From Bacteroides nordii WAL 11050 = JCM 12987 (GTDB taxonomy: Bacteria > Bacteroidota > Bacteroidia > Bacteroidales > Bacteroidaceae): DNA of 64,000 nt. The stretch is taken from contig BAJA01000006.1 of assembly GCA_000613465.1 (NCBI GenBank), positions 62,001 to 126,000 on the forward strand. The letters run 5' to 3'. The number at the start of each line of letters is the position of its first letter. Position 1 is the first letter of the stretch. Both the position numbers and the translations under genes were made by a program. Below, piece after piece: positions 3,690 to 25,013 of this stretch. Under the pieces are notes generated by a model, which made no database searches, was not told where the DNA came from, and worked only from the letters and a program-made list of their open reading frames with translations.

Positions 3690-5771
3690 ATGAAAAAGAG
3701 ATTATTCAATACAAAAAAGAAATTAGTCATTTTGTCTGTAATGGCACTTTCCATGGGAATGACGTCATGTGCAGACTGGCTCGAAATGCCTTCTTATACA
3801 TCAGCCGATTCTGAAACAGTATTTAAAAATGAGGAAGCTGCCGAATTATTCGTGACAGGTTGTTATCGGGGGATTATTCCTACCGAAATGGTCTATCAGT
3901 TGATGGCAGGTGAAACTGTAACCCACTCCAGTGAGGACGGTACGACTAACAACGGAAAATACAATATTTGTAACTGGTTTTATGATTCAACCTCTCCTTA
4001 TACCGTAACTACGCTTTACAATGAAGAGTACGGTGCTATTGAGGCAACTAATATTGCCATCAAGAATCTGAATATGATGCCGGAGACTACCAAGCGTAAC
4101 TCTTTGTTGGGTGAAGCGCTTGCACTGCGTGCTTTTGCCTATCTTAATCTGATTAGCATTTATGGTGATGTTCCTGCAAACTGGCAACCTCTGGAAGATA
4201 TGGATCCGGATGATGAATCGACTTTCTATCCTAAACGTACGTCTCGTGATGTCATTTATGACCGTATCGTTTCAGACTTGCAGACTGCTGCAAATTATAT
4301 GCCCTGGTTCGAAGAAAGTGGTTTTGCTACTACCGAACGTTTAACCAAACAGAGCACTTTGGCACTGTTGGCACGTGTGGCTCTTTATGCCGGAGGTTAT
4401 TCATTGCGTTGGAATCTTGAAACGAATGATCCGGCTACATTGAAAGTTTCCCGTCGTAGTGATGAAGCTCGTGTACGTGAACTTTATCAGATAGCCGACA
4501 AAGCTTGTAGCGATATCATAGAGCATGGACAGAACTCACTGGTTCAGGCAGAAGGTGGAATGAGTGGTTTTCAGAATTTATGGTATAATTATTGTCAGCG
4601 TAAATTCACCAGTTTGAATAAAGAGATTCTTTGGAGTTTGGCACAGTATGGAGCAACGACGAACTCAAAGTTTGGTTTGTATGCACATCCGGGTACCAGA
4701 GGGGGTACGTATGGTTCCCGTAAGGCGATGCAATTCATTTTGCCTACTTACTATTTGTCTTTTGAAGAAGGTGATGCACGCCGGGATGTGACTTGTACTT
4801 CTTACAGTATTTATTTTCTGGAAGGTGGTGCAAGTAATGATACCTGGGTGGACGTAGGTACTACTTATTCATGTATCATGTCGGGTAAATTCCGTATCCC
4901 CTGGTGTGTGGCACCCGAATCTGATGCAAACAAACGTAATGTAAATATTCCTATCATACGTTACTCTGATGTATTGCTGATGTATGCTGAAGCTCAGAAC
5001 TACTTGAATGGTGCTCCGACTCAGCCAGCTAAGGATGCTTTAAAAGAGATTCGTGATCGTGCCGGTGTAGGGTCGTTACCAATACCTACTGATCCGCAGG
5101 AATTTGAGGATGCTTTGGCTCAGGAACGTAAATGGGAATTTGGCGGAGAACTTTCACTACGTACAGATTTGATCCGTATGGGACGTATTGCCAAAGAATT
5201 GGCAGCAACAAAACAAGCGATGAAAGACCTTTCTGATCGTAAGAACAAATATGCAGATGTGCCGGTATATCGTTTGTATAAGTTCCATAAAGATGCACAG
5301 ACTTATGGCGATACTTTCCTGGCAATTGATTATATTGAATTGACCGATGATAACGAAATTGCAGTAGCAAAAGCTGTGCCTACCAATAAAGCTGAATATG
5401 ATGCATTCCAGACTAAACTGGCTGAAATTGTTCGTGCACACGGCATTGCAGTAAATGCAGGCGATAAATGGTACCCGGTTAATATGTTTGAAGCCTATAC
5501 CAGCACGTTCAATGGTAATGCTCGTAAGGCTGTAGGCTTTGGCAAAGGCTTCAATGCACTGCAAATTGGTAAGATCATTTATCAGAAACCTACAGGCTCT
5601 GCAGAAAACGGTGGTAAATATCCCGACTGGATTGAAGCTGCTGACGGTAGTGACGGTCTTTACTATGGCTATAAGGAAAATTGCTCTGAATTGTTGCCTT
5701 TTGCAGCTAAGTCTGCCGGTCATCCACTGGTTGACAATCCGAATTTGACACAACATCCCGGATATAAATAA
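3690..5771 (+). CDS. SusD/RagB family starch-binding-like surface lipoprotein
   Basis: Surface glycan-binding lipoprotein that caps the SusC channel. It begins 11 bases after susC, so the pair is co-transcribed. The N-terminus is a lipoprotein signal with lipobox SMGMTSC (Cys27). The N-terminal TPR-like part contains the family signature region LLGEALALRAFAYLNLISIYGDVP, and the C-terminal part contains IPIIRYSDVLLMYAEAQN and the ERKWEFGGE region. At 693 residues it is at the long end for SusD proteins. The ligand cannot be told from sequence; the downstream glycosidases and FucO suggest a glycan containing a 6-deoxyhexose. Confidence 0.94.
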   Translation: MKKRLFNTKKKLVILSVMALSMGMTSCADWLEMPSYTSADSETVFKNEEAAELFVTGCYRGIIPTEMVYQLMAGETVTHSSEDGTTNNGKYNICNWFYDSTSPYTVTTLYNEEYGAIEATNIAIKNLNMMPETTKRNSLLGEALALRAFAYLNLISIYGDVPANWQPLEDMDPDDESTFYPKRTSRDVIYDRIVSDLQTAANYMPWFEESGFATTERLTKQSTLALLARVALYAGGYSLRWNLETNDPATLKVSRRSDEARVRELYQIADKACSDIIEHGQNSLVQAEGGMSGFQNLWYNYCQRKFTSLNKEILWSLAQYGATTNSKFGLYAHPGTRGGTYGSRKAMQFILPTYYLSFEEGDARRDVTCTSYSIYFLEGGASNDTWVDVGTTYSCIMSGKFRIPWCVAPESDANKRNVNIPIIRYSDVLLMYAEAQNYLNGAPTQPAKDALKEIRDRAGVGSLPIPTDPQEFEDALAQERKWEFGGELSLRTDLIRMGRIAKELAATKQAMKDLSDRKNKYADVPVYRLYKFHKDAQTYGDTFLAIDYIELTDDNEIAVAKAVPTNKAEYDAFQTKLAEIVRAHGIAVNAGDKWYPVNMFEAYTSTFNGNARKAVGFGKGFNALQIGKIIYQKPTGSAENGGKYPDWIEAADGSDGLYYGYKENCSELLPFAAKSAGHPLVDNPNLTQHPGYK

Positions 5772-11513: not shown

Positions 11514-12668
11514 ATGAACCGTATTGTATTAAATGAAACATCCTATTTCGGAGCCGGCTGCCGTAGTGTAATTGCTGTAGAGGCTGCCCGTCGTGGATTC
11601 AGGAAAGCTTTCTTTGTCACAGACAAAGATCTTATTAAATTTGGGGTGGCTGCTGAGGTTATCAAAGTGTTTGAAGTTAATAACATTCCTTATGAACTCT
11701 ACAGTGACGTTAAAGCAAACCCGACTATTGCCAATGTACAGAATGGTGTGAAGGCTTATAAGGCTTCCGGAGCCGACTTTATTGTAGCTCTGGGTGGTGG
11801 CTCTTCTATAGATACTGCTAAAGGTATTGGTATTGTGGTGAATAATCCGGAGTTTGCCGATGTGAAATCTCTGGAAGGTGTTGCCGACACAAAACACAAG
11901 GCTGTGCCTACCTTTGCATTGCCTACCACTGCCGGAACGGCTGCTGAGGTAACCATCAATTATGTGATTATCGATGAAGAAGCCAAAAAGAAGATGGTAT
12001 GTGTGGATCCTAACGACATTCCCGCTGTTGCTATTGTTGACCCGGAATTGATGTACTCTATGCCGAAGGGGTTGACAGCTGCTACCGGAATGGATGCATT
12101 GACTCATGCTATTGAAAGCTTTATTACTCCGGGAGCCTGGGCAATGAGTGATATGTTCGAGCTGAAAGCTATTGAAATGATTGCTCAGAATCTGAAAGCT
12201 GCCGTAGATAACGGAAAAGATACTGCCGCCCGCGAAGCTATGTCGCAGGCACAATATATTGCCGGTATGGGATTTTCTAATGTAGGTCTGGGCATTGTTC
12301 ACTCTATGGCTCATCCGTTAGGCGCTTTTTATGACACTCCGCATGGTGTAGCCAATGCTTTGCTTTTGCCTTATGTAATGGAATATAACGCTGAATCTCC
12401 GGCTGCATCAAAATATATCCGGATTGCAGAAGCGATGGGGGTAGATACGGAAGGTATGACCGAAGCGGAGGGCGTAAAAGCTGCTATTGAAGCTGTAAAA
12501 GCCCTTTCTCTTAGTATTAATATTCCTCAGAAATTGCATGAAATCAATGTGAAAGAAGAAGATATCCCGGCTTTAGCCGTAGCGGCTTTTAATGATGTAT
12601 GTACGGGGGGGAATCCACGTCCTACTTCTGTAGAAGATATTGAAGCACTCTATCGCAAAGCATTTTAA
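11514..12668 (+). CDS. fucO: Iron-dependent alcohol dehydrogenase, lactaldehyde reductase type
   Basis: Probably reduces L-lactaldehyde, the aldolase product of L-fucose or L-rhamnose breakdown, to 1,2-propanediol with NADH. The 384-residue length equals that of FucO. Visible are the dinucleotide-binding ALGGGSSIDTAKG, the metal-site stretch ATGMDALTHAIESF and the HSMAHPLGAFYDTPHGVANALLLP block with the metal-binding histidines. It follows the DUF4450-type gene by 4 bases, so it is probably in the same operon, tying this locus to a 6-deoxyhexose-containing glycan. A broader group III alcohol dehydrogenase activity cannot be excluded. Confidence 0.88.
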   Translation: MNRIVLNETSYFGAGCRSVIAVEAARRGFRKAFFVTDKDLIKFGVAAEVIKVFEVNNIPYELYSDVKANPTIANVQNGVKAYKASGADFIVALGGGSSIDTAKGIGIVVNNPEFADVKSLEGVADTKHKAVPTFALPTTAGTAAEVTINYVIIDEEAKKKMVCVDPNDIPAVAIVDPELMYSMPKGLTAATGMDALTHAIESFITPGAWAMSDMFELKAIEMIAQNLKAAVDNGKDTAAREAMSQAQYIAGMGFSNVGLGIVHSMAHPLGAFYDTPHGVANALLLPYVMEYNAESPAASKYIRIAEAMGVDTEGMTEAEGVKAAIEAVKALSLSINIPQKLHEINVKEEDIPALAVAAFNDVCTGGNPRPTSVEDIEALYRKAF

Positions 12669-12827: not shown

Positions 12828-12837
12828 TACTAATTAG

Positions 12838-12910
12838 TCGGAATGAGGCGACTCGAACGCCCGACCCCTACGTCCCGAACGTAGTGCGCTACCAACTGCG
12901 CTACATTCCG
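12838..12910 (-). tRNA. tRNA-Pro (anticodon CGG)
   Basis: A 73-base cloverleaf on the minus strand: acceptor CGGAATG/CATTCCG, D-arm GCGC-AGTTGGTA-GCGC, anticodon stem CTACG/CGTAG around loop TTCGGGA (anticodon CGG), T-arm with TTCGAGT, discriminator A. CCA is not encoded. Ten bases upstream of its 5' end lies a copy of the tRNA-Phe 3' end, which suggests it was once the second gene of a Phe-Pro tandem. Confidence 0.95.
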
Positions 12911-12917
12911 CTACTTT

Positions 12918-12932
12918 AAGTGGTGCCACCAG
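12918..12932. repeat. Left attachment-site copy (attL-type)
   Basis: AAGTGGTGCCACCAG is identical to the tRNA-Phe 3' end at 24891-24905. Identity stops abruptly on both sides, as expected for an integrase core site. Confidence 0.8.
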
Positions 12933-12993
12933 TAACCGAAAATCGGTTTATATAGCACTATTTCTCAATAAGTTATATCTTTATTACGATGTT

Positions 12994-13009
12994 AGTCCCT
13001 TGAATAAGG
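12994..13009 (+). repeat. Left subterminal direct repeat, candidate integrase arm site
   Basis: AGTCCCTTGAATAAGG recurs in the same orientation at 24771-24786. It sits 61 bases inside the left core; the partner sits about 104 bases inside the right core. Paired subterminal repeats of this kind serve as arm-type sites for tyrosine integrases or excisionases. Confidence 0.55.
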
Positions 13010-13067
13010 TTTTCACAACTTTGCACCGTTCAACACAAGTTTGTGTCTTAGGTTCGATTTCTGCGTG

Positions 13068-13097
13068 CAAAGGTAGATATTTATTTGGAATTATCAA
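13068..13097 (-). promoter_or_regulatory. Outward-facing promoter toward tRNA-Pro
   Basis: On the minus strand TTG (13095-13097) is followed by exactly 19 bases and TACCTTTG (13068-13075), a good fit to TTTG-N19-TAnnTTTG. The tRNA-Phe promoter (24984-25013) has the same TTG-N19 layout. The transcript would start near 13060, leave the element and run into tRNA-Pro. It may replace the promoter lost when tRNA-Pro was separated from tRNA-Phe. Confidence 0.6.
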
Positions 13098-13470
13098 TAT
13101 TTCCAAGAACTTTTTTTTTGTATTTACTACTAAGAGTCTGTTTGAATTTTGTTCAGCATTCTTTTAGGAGTTGTTTTGAGGATTTTTCTCTGTATCATTA
13201 AGAAGAATTGCAGGCTATGTGACGGAAGGTTTTCAATATCCATGAAGTATATAGAAAGAACTTTAGTCGAAATGTCAGGTATCAATTTTCCCAATAGATT
13301 GAATCGTAAAGGAGTATTTTTGTCGAGCAATATGTATAACTACATAAACCCCACTGGTTTCGAAACGTGCAGCTACATTACAAATAGGGTAAATTTCAAT
13401 AATGGATTGTTTTGATGAAAAAAACTCTTCAATATTAGACTTACTGACATAGGGCTGTCATAGAAGACGC
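13098..13470. other. AT-rich gap with a possible insertion-sequence remnant
   Basis: No convincing gene is seen. A short minus-strand frame at 13130-13330 (66 codons) ends in NKIQTDS. Its last codons overlap AGAGTCTGTTTGAATTTTG, which resembles the terminal repeat of IS5-like elements. This could be the tail of a decayed transposase. No matching second end was found. Confidence 0.25.
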
Positions 13471-13511: not shown

Positions 13512-14138
13512 ATGAAAAGATTATTTTTATGCTCATCATTTGCTGATGTTGCTAATCTATTTGTCGATTGTGCCAAAGAAGATTTGCAAGGGAAAATTAT
13601 AGCTTTTATACCAACTGCAAGCCTTACAGAACCAATACGATTCTATGTAAAAAAGGGGAAAAAGGCTTTAGAAGAAGCAGGAATGATTGTTGAAGAAGTC
13701 GAGATTACCCAACTGCCCAAAGAGGAAATATCTTCTATATTGCATAAATGCGATTATATCTACATAACAGGTGGAAATACATTTTCCCTTTTGCAAGAGT
13801 TAAAAAGAAAAGGTGTTGATAAAATTATATCTAAACAAGTGAAATTGGGTAAACTGTATATTGGGGAATCTGCCGGAGCAATAATAGCCTCTCCCGATGC
13901 AGAATATATGAGAAGTGTGAATTTTGATCCAATAGAAAAGGCTCCTGAATTGAAAGACTGTACTTCTTTAGATTTGGTCGATTTTTATACGATTCCCCAT
14001 TATGGAAATTTTCCATTCAAGAAAAAAGGTGAAAAGATAGTTCAACTATATAATGAGAAGTTGCAGCTTATTCCTATAAGTAATAAACAAGCTGTTATTA
14101 TTGAAGATTCAAATATTCAAATTAAAGATGCAAAATGA
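13512..14138 (+). CDS. Peptidase S51 (dipeptidase E-like) protein
   Basis: A 208-residue cytoplasmic protein of the peptidase E/cyanophycinase fold. The nucleophile elbow GESAGA places the catalytic serine at residue 120. YITGGNTFSLL (84-94) and TIPHYGNFP (catalytic His region) are the other family blocks. Characterised members cleave Asp-X dipeptides or related substrates; this one may have another substrate. Its stop overlaps the start of the WYL regulator by 4 bases, so the two are translationally coupled. The pair is AT-rich compared with the mobilization genes and looks like cargo of the mobile element. Confidence 0.8.
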   Translation: MKRLFLCSSFADVANLFVDCAKEDLQGKIIAFIPTASLTEPIRFYVKKGKKALEEAGMIVEEVEITQLPKEEISSILHKCDYIYITGGNTFSLLQELKRKGVDKIISKQVKLGKLYIGESAGAIIASPDAEYMRSVNFDPIEKAPELKDCTSLDLVDFYTIPHYGNFPFKKKGEKIVQLYNEKLQLIPISNKQAVIIEDSNIQIKDAK

Positions 14139-15067
14139 ATAGAATAGACCGTATTTCTGCTATATTGATTCAGTTACAATCGCACTCGTTAGTGAAAGCA
14201 CAGCAAATTTCAGAACGTTTTAATATAAGCATTCGTACTGTATATCGAGATATAAGAACATTGGAAGAGGCAGGCATTCCTATCATAGGAAATCCCGGTA
14301 TTGGTTATTCACTTGCAGAAGGATTCAAATTATCTCCTCTAATGTTTACTCAAAAAGAGGCTTTGTCCTTTTTGATTGCAGAGAAATTAGTACATGAACT
14401 AACTGATTCAAATAGCAACGAACATTATAAGTCTGGAATAGAAAAGATTAGGTCTGTCATGCGTTTTGCAGACAAAAATATGTTAGAAACAATGGAAAAG
14501 TGCATGTCTGTATTGGATACTTATAAATCATCTACCTATAAACCTGATATTCTTTTACTTATTTTACAAAGTATATACCAAAAAAGAATTATTGAAATAT
14601 CTTATTTGGGAAGTAATGCGTTAAGTGTTTCAGAACGAAAGATTGAAGCTGTTGGAATTTTCTTTTCGAGAACTAACTGGTATCTAATAGGCTTTTATCT
14701 TCCCAAAGAAATCTATCTTACATTTCGGATAGATAGAATTCAAAAAATGCACATTCTTAATGAATTACAATCACGGGAACATCCTCCTTTGGAAAAATTC
14801 ATACGCGAGTTTTATGATAAAGAAAAATTACATGAAATCGTTATAAGAATAGAAAAGAATAAAACCTCCATAATGAATGATGATAAATATTATTACGGAT
14901 TAACATCTGAGAAAGAGATAGGGGATATGTTTGAGCTTCATTTTCTAACATTTTCAATCAGTAAGTTTGCACATTGGTATCTGTCTTTTGCAGATAGTGC
15001 AACTATAATAAGACCAGATTCTTTAAAATATGAAGTTAAAAATATTATCAATAACATTTCTATTTGA
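14135..15067 (+). CDS. YafY-type HTH/WYL-domain transcriptional regulator
   Basis: A 310-residue protein with an N-terminal HTH_11 winged helix (RISAILIQLQ, KAQQISERFNISIRTVYRDI, LEEAGIPIIGNPGIGYSL) and a C-terminal WYL-like ligand-sensing domain (ERKIEAVGIFFSRTNWYLIGF, LTFRIDRIQKM). Such regulators are often autorepressors or respond to nucleic acid or small ligands, and they are frequent neighbours of phage-defence genes. It overlaps the S51 peptidase by ATGA and probably controls it and itself. The ligand is unknown. Confidence 0.82.
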   Translation: MNRIDRISAILIQLQSHSLVKAQQISERFNISIRTVYRDIRTLEEAGIPIIGNPGIGYSLAEGFKLSPLMFTQKEALSFLIAEKLVHELTDSNSNEHYKSGIEKIRSVMRFADKNMLETMEKCMSVLDTYKSSTYKPDILLLILQSIYQKRIIEISYLGSNALSVSERKIEAVGIFFSRTNWYLIGFYLPKEIYLTFRIDRIQKMHILNELQSREHPPLEKFIREFYDKEKLHEIVIRIEKNKTSIMNDDKYYYGLTSEKEIGDMFELHFLTFSISKFAHWYLSFADSATIIRPDSLKYEVKNIINNISI

Positions 15068-16945: not shown

Positions 16946-17869
16946 CTATAATTTTAAGTGTCGTTTCTTTTTTCTCTTTTTCCTTTCACCGGGATTGTCG
17001 GGTGTTTCATCAGCCGGAGAGGACGGGGCGGAGAATAGACCGCCCAAGCCTGCCAGTAACGGACTGTCTGCTTTAAACGGTGTCCGTGTCGGTTCTTGAA
17101 CAGGGACGGAAACCGTCTGTCGGTTGCTTCCGGCAGTGTTCAGTTCCGCATCCCCGAAACATTTATCCAGCTTGGAGAAACTGAAACTGCGGTCTATCTC
17201 CGAACCCTTGAACGTGTATTCACCTTTGGAAAAAGATATGCCCTGCACTTCGCCAGTCTGTCCCCTGTACTTGAAATGAATCCCGATACCCTTTTCTGCC
17301 AGTCGGGTTTGTAACTGCTGCCAGTTCCTTGATTTCCCGATTTCATCCTTTACGGCATTGTAAATCTCGTATTTGGATTTGTCCGGTTCTCTCAAACGGT
17401 GCTGCTTTACATGCTCCTTGCCTTTAGCGAAGTAAAGCCCGTGTTTGGCTTTCAGCTTCTTGCATACCTGCTCGTTGCGGTACATGTCGTTCCTGTCCGA
17501 AATGGTCTTGCCGTTGTTGTCTATACGGTTGAACACGATATGCACGTGCGGATGTTCCCGGTCTTGGTGGCGCACGATGATGTACTGCGTATCGGTGATT
17601 CTCATTTCACGCATATACTCCTGCGCAAGCTGTATCATTTTCCCGTCTGTCAGCTTGGGTGCGTCCACTGGGGAATAGCTTAGCGCAATATGTCCGACAG
17701 GCTTTTTCAGGTCGGGGTTCATCCCGGCTTGCAGTATGAAACTGCGTATGATGTCCCGGTTGCTTTCGGCTAACACTCCCTCCGCATGAAGTAAGGTAGC
17801 CTGTTCCTTGCCGAGTACATAGTTCACGCAGCCTTTAAATCCGCTTCCCTTTTTTATTTTTCCAATCAT
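16946..17869 (-). CDS. MobA/MobP-type relaxase
   Basis: Nicks the element at oriT and pilots the strand during mobilization. The 307-residue protein has the N-terminal relaxase domain with a likely catalytic Tyr in GCVNYVLG (residue 17) and the metal-binding histidine triad in HQDREHPHVH (101-110), followed by IVFNRID. The C-terminus is short and basic (ERKKRKKKRHLKL), so there is no fused primase or helicase. Its start overlaps the MobC-like gene by 35 bases. The family is the relaxase/mobilization nuclease domain found in Bacteroides NBU and Tn4555-type elements. Confidence 0.92.
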   Translation of the reverse strand: MIGKIKKGSGFKGCVNYVLGKEQATLLHAEGVLAESNRDIIRSFILQAGMNPDLKKPVGHIALSYSPVDAPKLTDGKMIQLAQEYMREMRITDTQYIIVRHQDREHPHVHIVFNRIDNNGKTISDRNDMYRNEQVCKKLKAKHGLYFAKGKEHVKQHRLREPDKSKYEIYNAVKDEIGKSRNWQQLQTRLAEKGIGIHFKYRGQTGEVQGISFSKGEYTFKGSEIDRSFSFSKLDKCFGDAELNTAGSNRQTVSVPVQEPTRTPFKADSPLLAGLGGLFSAPSSPADETPDNPGERKKRKKKRHLKL

Positions 17870-18218
17870 CCGACAGTTGGTTTATGATTTCAACAATCCT
17901 GTTTTTGAGTTTCACCAGTTCCACCGCTACCAGTGCGAACCCTCCGGCATTCGCCCGGTGCGCCAGCTGGTTGATGTTGTTGGCTTCCCCTGCCAGCTTG
18001 CGGATAGTGTCCGCATCCTGCCTGTTCAGTCGGGGCGTCACCTCTGCCGAAACGACAGCCTGCCGGACGTACTCGCTGACACGCAGCCCGGCTTCGGTGG
18101 CTCGCTTCCTGATTGCGTAGAACTGTAACTCGGTCAGTTTCGTGCTGACTACCCGGTTCTGCTTGTCTATCCGGCTTTTTGCCGGGCGACCTCCCGGTTT
18201 GTTCCTTATCCCTGTCAT
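17835..18218 (-). CDS. MobC-like relaxosome accessory protein
   Basis: A 127-residue basic protein with a ribbon-helix-helix-like N-terminus (VVSTKLTELQFYAIRKRATEAG) and the MobC signature (GEANNINQLAHRANAGG). MobC proteins bind oriT and help the relaxase open the strands. It is the first gene of the mob operon, reading away from the hairpin region at 18273-18324, and overlaps the relaxase gene. Assignment rests on the motif, length and context. Confidence 0.88.
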   Translation of the reverse strand: MTGIRNKPGGRPAKSRIDKQNRVVSTKLTELQFYAIRKRATEAGLRVSEYVRQAVVSAEVTPRLNRQDADTIRKLAGEANNINQLAHRANAGGFALVAVELVKLKNRIVEIINQLSDDWKNKKGKRI

Positions 18219-23400: not shown

Positions 23401-24651
23401 TTACAATTCAGCATTAAAGTTGCTGAAAAATGATATTTTTCTCTCTACGTATTGCATATCCCTTAGTATCGTTTGGTCTAATACCTTTGCGTAGTGCTGC
23501 GTCATTCGGGTGGATGAATGCCCCAGCATTTTAGCCACGTTCGGCAGTGACACGTTGTTAGCCAGCGCAATAACCGAAGCGAAACTGTGCCGGGCTGTGT
23601 GCGTGGTCAGGTTCTTTTTAATACCGCAAAGGTCGGCAATCTCTTTCAGGTAGCTGTTCATCTTCTGATTGCAGGGAACGGGCAACAAAGTTCCTTTATC
23701 CATGCAGTAGGGGTTATCCTTATACTTTTCAAGTATCTGTTTGGGAATGCTCAAAAGCGGGATGTTACAGAGGTTGTTTGTCTTTTCACGGGGTTTCACT
23801 ATCCACAGGTTGCCGTTGCTGTCCTCTGAAACGTGTTCGGGGCGTAAGTTATACACGTCTATGAATGCCAGCCCGGTATATACGCAGAAGATAAAAACAT
23901 CCCGTACCAGTTCCAGCCGTTCAATCCTGAACTCTTTCTGCCATATCCGGTTTATCTCGGCTTGGCTTAGGAACTGTTTGTTTACCTCCACCTCGTGAAA
24001 CTTGATTCCTGCAAACGGGTTCTTTGTCAGCCACTCGTTGGCAATGGCAAGGTTTATCACTTTCTTAAAACATTTCATGTACCGGATAACGGTATTCTGT
24101 GCGCAATGCTTCTCCGTCTTTAGGTATAAATCGAATTTGCGTACCAGTTCCCCGTTTACCTCACGCAGTAACATATCATCTACCTTGTAATCCCGTTTAA
24201 CCAGTTCCATGAGGTATTTAAGGCAATTGTCGTAACGTCTTACGGTGATGTCGGCATAGTCTGTCCCGATTAGCTTCCGGCAGTTGTCATTATGTTCCTT
24301 GAATACATTATACAATGTCTTGAAAGTTTCGTCCTTTCCCTGATAGCGGTTCACTATGGCACGTGCGGAGATAATCTTTCCCTCCAGTTCCAAGTCTTGG
24401 TAAATCTGATAGAATTTCACACGCAGGGCGTCAATGTAATGGTTAAGTTCTACGGAGTTTCGGTCTTTGCCTGTCGATTTCTCTTTTTCCTGCGACCAAA
24501 GTGGGACTTTTACACTCCGCTTTAGTTGAAGTTCCACGTATAGGCGGTCATAAGTGACACGCACACGCACGGGTGCTTCCCCGTTTTTTAACAGTTTGCT
24601 ACGCTTGATGAAGAACAACACGCTGAATCTTTTTCTTTCCATACGGCTCAA
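23401..24651 (-). CDS. int: Tyrosine recombinase / integrase
   Basis: Catalyses integration and excision of the element. The 416-residue protein has the Bacteroides layout: N-terminal arm-binding domain (RFSVLFFIKRSKLLKNGEAP), SAM-like core-binding domain (about 110-210) and catalytic domain with HTAR (351-354), LGH (His378) and the nucleophile Tyr387 (MTQHYAKV). The usual first catalytic Arg is replaced by Ala in VYTGLAFIDVYNL, a change shared by many Bacteroides integrases. The gene reads away from the right end, with its start about 240 bases from the core site in tRNA-Phe, and has the direct-repeat arm candidate in between. Confidence 0.93.
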   Translation of the reverse strand: MSRMERKRFSVLFFIKRSKLLKNGEAPVRVRVTYDRLYVELQLKRSVKVPLWSQEKEKSTGKDRNSVELNHYIDALRVKFYQIYQDLELEGKIISARAIVNRYQGKDETFKTLYNVFKEHNDNCRKLIGTDYADITVRRYDNCLKYLMELVKRDYKVDDMLLREVNGELVRKFDLYLKTEKHCAQNTVIRYMKCFKKVINLAIANEWLTKNPFAGIKFHEVEVNKQFLSQAEINRIWQKEFRIERLELVRDVFIFCVYTGLAFIDVYNLRPEHVSEDSNGNLWIVKPREKTNNLCNIPLLSIPKQILEKYKDNPYCMDKGTLLPVPCNQKMNSYLKEIADLCGIKKNLTTHTARHSFASVIALANNVSLPNVAKMLGHSSTRMTQHYAKVLDQTILRDMQYVERKISFFSNFNAEL

Positions 24652-24770
24652 TTTTTAATGATACAAAGTTAGGAAATCGAACCGAGAACCCTGTTATGTA
24701 AAATAGTGCAACGTGCTGTAAAAGAATGAAGTAAATACCTCGCAGTGGAACATTTCGGGCTTTTAAAAAC

Positions 24771-24786
24771 AGTCCCTTGAATAAGG
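24771..24786 (+). repeat. Right subterminal direct repeat, candidate integrase arm site
   Basis: AGTCCCTTGAATAAGG is identical to 12994-13009 and lies between the integrase start and the right core site. Confidence 0.55.
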
Positions 24787-24836: not shown

Positions 24837-24869
24837 AAATCCCTGAACTTCTTTGAAATTCAGGGATTT
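24837..24869 (-). terminator. Terminator immediately downstream of tRNA-Phe
   Basis: AAATCCCTGAA (24837-24847) pairs with TTCAGGGATTT (24859-24869). On the minus strand it is followed by TTTTTCTTTTCC. It lies within the element, so it would stop tRNA-Phe transcription before the integrase. Confidence 0.7.
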
Positions 24870-24890: not shown

Positions 24891-24905
24891 AAGTGGTGCC
24901 ACCAG
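24891..24905. repeat. Right attachment-site copy within the tRNA-Phe 3' end
   Basis: AAGTGGTGCCACCAG covers the acceptor strand and part of the T-arm of tRNA-Phe and matches 12918-12932 exactly. Confidence 0.8.
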
Positions 24906-24966
24906 GAATCGAACCGGGGACACAAGGATTTTCAGTCCTTTGCTCTACCAACTGAGCTATGGCACC
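24894..24966 (-). tRNA. tRNA-Phe (anticodon GAA)
   Basis: A 73-base cloverleaf on the minus strand: acceptor GGTGCCA/TGGCACC, D-arm GCTC-AGTTGGTA-GAGC, anticodon loop CTGAAAA (anticodon GAA), T-arm with TTCGATT, discriminator A, no encoded CCA. The gene is intact; its 3' end doubles as the right attachment site. Confidence 0.96.
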
Positions 24967-24983: not shown

Positions 24984-25013
24984 CAAAGATAGGTATATTT
25001 TTCAATACTGCAA
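24984..25013 (-). promoter_or_regulatory. tRNA-Phe promoter
   Basis: On the minus strand TTG (25011-25013), 19 bases, then TATCTTTG (24984-24991): a near-ideal Bacteroidota promoter 17 bases before the tRNA. It presumably once served tRNA-Phe and tRNA-Pro together. Confidence 0.75.

Follow-up and report, generated by a model that had tools for sequence, protein, structure and literature searches.

The element and the divided tRNA operon

Analysis of a 64,000-nucleotide stretch of the Bacteroides nordii WAL 11050 = JCM 12987 genome (contig BAJA01000006.1, positions 62,001 to 126,000; hereafter the window) revealed genes for tRNA-Phe and tRNA-Pro(CGG) on the minus strand, with the genes of a mobile element lying between them (Table 1). 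ARAGORN finds 58 tRNA genes in this genome, around 59 tRNA-family matches, and the proline tRNAs among them are a single Pro-cgg, a single Pro-tgg and a single Pro-ggg. Elsewhere in the genus the two genes are frequently neighbours. The pattern of a tRNA-Phe 3′ end followed by tRNA-Pro is matched in 67 of 158 Bacteroides genomes, and in 60 of the 158 the tandem is intact, as judged by the junction pattern together with part of the tRNA-Phe body. The spacer between the two genes is 10–17 nt in all 17 empty loci read, and in each of these a full promoter, TTG-N19/20-TATCTTTG, stands immediately upstream of tRNA-Phe. Where the junction is intact behind one promoter before tRNA-Phe, the two genes form an operon with tRNA-Pro in second place, and the 17 loci, with the genes in tandem behind a shared upstream promoter, bear out the proposal of an earlier, sequence-only reading that the insertion splits tRNA-Pro from the tRNA-Phe promoter. 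In other Bacteroides lineages tRNA-Pro lies apart from tRNA-Phe or opposite to it, and most such loci read have their own promoter-like motif within ∼100 nt of tRNA-Pro.

The ends of the element were defined by comparison with empty sites. The flanks of the window insertion, the left ending at 12932 and the right starting at 24891, align to one locus each in four cases (G081, G147:C29, G104 and G014), where they overlap by exactly 15 bp; because G081 and G147:C29 are 99.6% identical, these represent three independent cases at most. The overlapping segment is AAGTGGTGCCACCAG, the 3′ end of tRNA-Phe, found at both 12918–12932 and 24891–24905, so that the element lies between two copies of this core and spans ∼12.0 kb. 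The crossover core had earlier been taken to be AGTCCCTTGAATAAGG (starts at 12994 and 24771). The overlap in the four empty sites, and the 10–17 nt spacers in the 17 empty loci read, rule this out, and we retain the sequence as an inner arm repeat; it contains a near-palindromic GTCC...GGAC.

Ten chosen open reading frames were scanned, and a tyrosine integrase, a relaxase, a MobC/NikA-like protein and primase-like genes were among the matches. A direct repeat of the tRNA 3′ end with matching empty sites (a 15-bp core and four such sites), and an integrase near one end of the element adjoining the target tRNA-Phe, are the arrangement expected of a tRNA-targeting integrative mobilizable element (IME).

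Table 1. Coordinates of features at the tRNA-Phe/tRNA-Pro locus
Feature	Position in window	Strand	Basis or remark
tRNA-Pro(CGG)	12837–12910	−	ARAGORN; stranded behind the element
att core, left copy (15 bp, tRNA-Phe 3′ end)	12918–12932		Direct repeat; 15-bp flank overlap in empty sites
Left attachment arm (leader of presumed outward transcript)	12933–13062	−	Conserved arm block
Arm repeat AGTCCCTTGAATAAGG, left copy	12994–13009		76 bp inside the true left end
Outward promoter, TTG-N19-TACCTTTG	13068–13097	−	Motif and profile; expected start near 13060
A-tract upstream of promoter (UP-like)	13111–13119	−	Resembles host tRNA promoters by eye
Relaxase (MobA/VirD2 family)	16946–17869	−	PF03432, E 7.4e-36
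MobC/NikA-like mobilization protein	17835–18218	−	PF21983, PF05713
Tyrosine integrase	23401–24651	−	Arm-DNA-bind_5, SAM_5 and catalytic domain (PF17293 + PF13102 + PF00589)
Arm repeat, right copy	24771–24786		Together with adjacent sequence, also a weak terminator-like hairpin (minus strand)
Intrinsic terminator borne by the element, directly after tRNA-Phe	24837–24869	−	Terminator scan
att core, right copy (15 bp)	24891–24905		Direct repeat; 15-bp flank overlap in empty sites
tRNA-Phe	24893–24966	−	ARAGORN; first gene of the ancestral Phe-Pro tandem
tRNA-Phe promoter, ancestrally also that of tRNA-Pro	24984–25013	−	Motif and profile; same position in 17/17 empty loci read

Several further features of the element were recorded. 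The cargo by the left end (13512–15067) comprises a peptidase S51 homologue and, after it, a WYL-domain regulator. A piece at 13128–13224, immediately on the inner side of the outward promoter, resembles short repeats elsewhere in the genome (C54, C104 and C112; 72–86% identity), two of which share a GGCTATGTGACG segment, and this piece is possibly a small non-autonomous insertion. The complement of a tRNA T-arm, AATCGAACC, occurs in the left arm at 13051–13059 and, in the opposite orientation, just before the integrase gene at 24675–24683; it is also found within the spacer of most family-2 outward promoters (see below) and is a possible integrase-binding motif. At two loci in other genomes, L038 (G009:C7) and L044 (G032:C14), one element's left arm runs straight into the right arm of a second element, whose integrase is 55–59% identical to that of the window, in apparent tandem arrays.

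Signals at the two ends

A terminator had been claimed to lie right behind tRNA-Phe, and the scan found a strong one at exactly 24837–24869. Among 14 right-arm stretches scanned, three of which stand behind the core of a neighbouring element instead of tRNA-Phe, 13 have a terminator within ∼70 nt after the core, and in the exception, G081, the hairpin is followed by a short T-run. Five of the 14 right arms (G057, G144, G120, G082 and G116:C49) gave no match to the window's integrase, so some of these may be remnants or carry another integrase; where the integrase is matched, the terminator is present in eight of nine, G081 again being the exception. By eye, a hairpin with a T-run also follows tRNA-Phe in G044 and G147:C53. 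In G144 (L102 and L048), nearly the same terminator stands after an intact tRNA-Phe and after the far copy of the core, as if the element had taken up or duplicated a host terminator.

At the opposite end of the element, a minus-strand promoter with the geometry of the tRNA-Phe promoter had been proposed; TTG-N19-TACCTTTG is located exactly at 13068–13097, N19 being the spacing in both promoters, and its −7 box is ∼158–165 nt from the 5′ end of tRNA-Pro. The site carries TAnnTTTG at −7 and TTG near −33, as do promoters of the Bacteroides primary sigma factor, whose consensus is given in PMC7366714 as TAnnTTTG at −7 with TTG or TTTG near −33. The −7 box at 13075 is the sole TAnnTTTG on the minus strand between 12911 and 14100 (1.19 kb), and no terminator-like site was found between the outward promoter and tRNA-Pro. 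The 10–17 nt spacers of the 17 empty loci read and the recurrence of the left arm at other loci rule out that 13068–13097 is native host promoter DNA.

The bare motif TTG-N19-TAnnTTTG is matched three times in the window, where 1.22 matches would be expected, and nine of 100 shuffles contain at least three. Since it is too common to be strong evidence, a profile was built from the genome's own tRNA promoters. TTG-N17-22-TAnnTTTG occurs in the 320 nt upstream of 48 of the 58 tRNA genes, tRNA-Pro(CGG) included, and the profile was made from the distinct host tRNA promoters minus that of tRNA-Pro(CGG), with 37 sequences for the −33 block and 35 for the −7 block. Across the window, read on both strands, its highest scores are 46.8 bits for the tRNA-Phe promoter, which was in the training set, 32.9 bits for the outward site, which was outside it, and 11.9 bits for the third-ranking site; among 848 segments of 150 nt, only those with the tRNA-Phe promoter and the outward site exceed 11.9. 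For leave-one-out tests and the later scoring of arms, the profile was derived from 35 host tRNA promoters, and these themselves score 16.5–50.0. Resemblance by chance, which the short motif alone could not exclude, is ruled out by these profile scores. Plain similarity searches give a concordant picture: among 19 look-alike loci read, which are part of all similarity matches in the genus and include two from the same genome as the window, 15 have a tRNA gene at most 300 nt downstream according to ARAGORN, two others run out close to a contig edge in an apparent tRNA-Asp start, and two are without a tRNA. We conclude that the outward site is, by its sequence, a promoter of the host tRNA class.

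Occupied junctions and arms at other sites

A junction was counted as occupied where the Phe-Pro junction pattern is present, the Phe body is out of place and the match is clear of contig edges. This identified six genomes, of which G000 and G009 (B. acidifaciens DSM 15896) have the window-like left arm (family 1) and G091 (B. congonensis), G059, G082 and G116 (B. rodentium JCM 16496) have a different one (family 2). The window's left arm as query gave no family-2 arm match at E 0.001, and the integrases of two family-2 elements are ∼46% identical to that of the window. In G091, ∼81 kb separate tRNA-Pro from its tRNA-Phe partner, whose flank matches that of the window. Two further occupants, G147:C53 and G044, have a decayed-looking core. 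In G044, tRNA-Phe lies on the same strand ∼36 kb from tRNA-Pro, accompanied by a right arm of family 1 and an integrase that is interrupted, apparently as the result of a composite insertion; the G147 bin also holds an empty junction (G147:C29) and may therefore be mixed. The eight occupied junctions thus found comprise small, large and composite insertions.

In all eight, TTG-N19/20-TAnnTTTG points outward, with the −7 box starting 154–182 nt upstream of tRNA-Pro; the check proposed in the earlier reading, whether other elements at this site keep the promoter, comes out positive. Profile scores are 32.8, 32.8, 20.3, 20.3, 19.4 and 23.3 for the first six and 19.9 and 13.7 for the two further ones; the promoters of the window and G009 are one lineage. 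tRNA-Pro is intact, with no mismatches in the six occupants compared.

The occupied count is a minimum (at least eight). Among genomes lacking the junction, 33 tRNA-Pro loci were read, three of them reaching contig ends, and only G044 was taken as occupied; this reading covered a 99-genome sample, 59 further genomes of the genus lying outside it. The junction pattern without an intact Phe body in G071 and in second contigs of G038 and G141 (G141:C82) was left out of the count, the G071 and G038 matches falling within 24 bases of a contig end. Across the wider family the occupied-site pattern was found in two of 399 genomes, G000 and G009, and a search of genome contigs returned four matches, all of these already known; the same search of viral contigs gave none. 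Two other tRNA junctions were searched with one pattern each, Tyr-Gly(tcc) with 0/158 and Gly-Leu(taa) with 1/158, numbers that are uninformative on generality; the single Gly-Leu(taa) match contains N bases and was taken for an assembly gap, not an insertion.

Both arm families are also found where tRNA-Pro does not follow in the locus, and these copies serve as a control that limits the claim. Family-1 scoring used 13 of 14 arms, G018 being left out because its core has diverged; family-2 scoring used 11 of 14 loci, leaving out G147, which has no core match and was scored later, and G111 and G110, which have no core match and which, in the part inspected, resemble coding DNA. The 18 arms not followed by tRNA-Pro score between −2.0 and 25.5; five of them reach at least 19.4, and eight reach at least 13.7, the score of the weakest occupant. 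Scores are higher at the Phe-Pro site (one-sided Mann–Whitney p 0.004 for six against 18 arms and p 0.006 for all eight against 18), these p values being too small because the arms are related by descent and not independent. A collapsed version of the test (p 0.007) was set aside because it removed high-scoring copies from the comparison group. In family 2, arms with and without a following tRNA-Pro can share an identical promoter string (G091 and G021; G116 and G047). In family 1 the exact TAnnTTTG is present in 11 of 14 arms (G144, G106 and G018 differ) and the −33 region varies. Alignment of 13 family-1 arms shows every defined base of TAnnTTTG to be either invariant or conserved to 90% or more, while the first n changes from arm to arm and conservation is lost in the columns farther upstream.

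Since the −7 box, and often the complete promoter, persists in copies without tRNA-Pro, the signal is not confined to the rescue site, and since the same arms occur at both kinds of site, the promoter is a property of the element arm and not a local adaptation of one insertion. An arm-borne promoter is expected if an element that can insert into either of the tRNA-Phe genes maintains a permanent rescue signal, and is also expected if the promoter has another job.

One such reading treats the promoter likeness as incidental: the arm would be conserved as DNA bound by the integrase or excisionase, and tRNA-Pro(CGG) would be poorly expressed but tolerated because the TGG isoacceptor covers CCG. 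The left arm is indeed conserved along its length (mean column identity 88% over 13 aligned family-1 left arms), the integrase has an arm-binding domain and a TGG isoacceptor is present. We nevertheless regard this reading as highly unlikely, for the outward site far outscores the next non-tRNA site (32.9 against 11.9), the promoter is found in two arm families between which no similarity was detected apart from the core, both the −33 region and the A-tract lie outside the conserved arm block and are present in the window and G009, and tRNA-Pro is unchanged in the six occupants compared. Barely credible, in our judgement, is a role in which a short regulatory RNA is produced from the attachment arm, or in which transcription across attL adjusts excision, with tRNA-Pro a mere passenger where it happens to lie downstream. 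At several other tRNA-Phe sites, judged by eye, the transcript would indeed run into a hairpin and T-run shortly past the core, but no target is known and the single arm dyad inspected, CTTTGCAC...GTGCAAAG, is without compensating changes in the 13-row alignment by eye; this RNA hairpin was dropped as a candidate.

Proposed function of the outward promoter

The division of the operon, the two signals and their positions, and their recurrence in other occupants can be read directly from the compared sequences, and they suggest the following mechanism. The ∼12-kb mobilizable element sits in the tRNA-Phe 3′ end and thereby splits the tRNA-Phe/tRNA-Pro operon. The terminator at its right end, beside tRNA-Phe, would end the Phe transcript, and the outward promoter at its left end, of the host tRNA class and ∼160 nt upstream of tRNA-Pro, would restart transcription. 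The outward transcript would run as a ∼150-nt leader through the attachment arm into tRNA-Pro, whose 5′ end would be trimmed in the usual way. With a terminator at one end and a promoter at the other, the split operon would become two working transcription units. We consider it probable that the element in this manner terminates the Phe transcript and re-powers tRNA-Pro from its own tRNA-class promoter. If this is true, the insertion would be nearly harmless to the host.

The observation that an outward promoter faces tRNA-Pro is thus confirmed, and its interpretation as a rescue promoter is supported by the comparative evidence within a clear limit. Beyond this we infer that transcription starts at the promoter, that tRNA-Pro relies on this start and that the promoter is maintained because it eases the cost of insertion; it appears to be placed to work as a rescue promoter, and selection may have acted for rescue. 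As it is a standing part of the arm, present also at sites with nothing to rescue, that it evolved to avoid a fitness cost can be put forward only conditionally. The cost itself may be modest: tRNA-Pro(TGG) might cover CCG codons, so that rescue may be helpful rather than vital, and with both tRNA-Pro(TGG) and tRNA-Pro(GGG) present, loss of the CGG tRNA might be costly rather than lethal.

Integration at tRNA 3′ ends is familiar in Bacteroides from the NBU elements. The restoration usually described for such integration is that of the target tRNA itself, and the rebuilt target is the usual explanation for the harmless settling of elements in tRNA genes. By comparison, the next tRNA of the operon would here be given a promoter as well, and the explanation would then cover the whole operon, with the element restoring transcription in addition to sequence. 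The general layout is that of genomic islands and ICEs at tRNA 3′ ends as described in PMC2704930, with the integrase beside the target tRNA, a 15–20 bp direct repeat of the tRNA 3′ end and the target tRNA left whole; the present element additionally has a relaxase.

The same source describes an alternative role for an outward promoter. ICEclc also lies in a tRNA 3′ end, and has a strong outward promoter at the end opposite the integrase, which is put before intB13 on circularization and drives it (PMC2704930). By analogy, the promoter at 13068–13097 might serve the element, reading across attP into the integrase in the circle and favouring reintegration, with tRNA-Pro transcription a by-product. 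The shared layout, the matching direction in which the integrase reads and the retention of the −7 box at sites without tRNA-Pro would all suit this role. In the circle, however, the path from promoter to integrase would not be clear as it is in ICEclc, since the right-arm terminator would stand between the core and the integrase, and on this account we rate an integrase-driving role lower; moreover, a TAACTTTG stands immediately upstream of the integrase gene in the window, although it lacks TTG at −33. We consider this role unlikely, and the case warns against assuming that an outward promoter at the end of an element is there to serve the integrase.

The closest precedent for a rescue promoter is the HK022 prophage between torS and torT of E. 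coli, where, according to PMC6814406, experiments showed that an outward prophage promoter replaces the torS promoter. In both systems a host gene loses contact with its native promoter through the insertion, and near the element junction lies an outward promoter sequence in the position to take over. HK022, as described there, is a phage that acts on a protein gene and re-regulates a respiratory pathway, whereas here integrating elements split a tRNA operon, bring a tRNA-class promoter as the substitute and provide a terminator at their opposite end; the takeover was shown by experiment for HK022 and is proposed from sequence comparison for Bacteroides. We found no prior report of promoter replacement for a split tRNA operon in the open-licence literature, most subscription journals lying outside that search.

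More tentatively, and at somewhat less than even odds, we suggest that a terminator arm and a tRNA-class promoter arm form a built-in module of Bacteroides tRNA-Phe-targeting elements, recurring in two or more arm families that share no similarity detected outside the core. Such a module would make insertion into a polycistronic tRNA operon neutral for host translation and open an otherwise closed site, and in some lineages (G044 and G147:C53) the promoter would outlive the core and become the regular promoter of the host tRNA. The locus offers a natural experiment, with the same site empty or occupied, two arm families, and sites with and without a downstream tRNA.

In G147:C53 (L179, ∼11988–12012) and G044 (L214, ∼3940–3972), the core by tRNA-Pro looks decayed and the outward promoter remains; a decayed core with a kept promoter possibly reflects domestication of an element promoter by the host tRNA.
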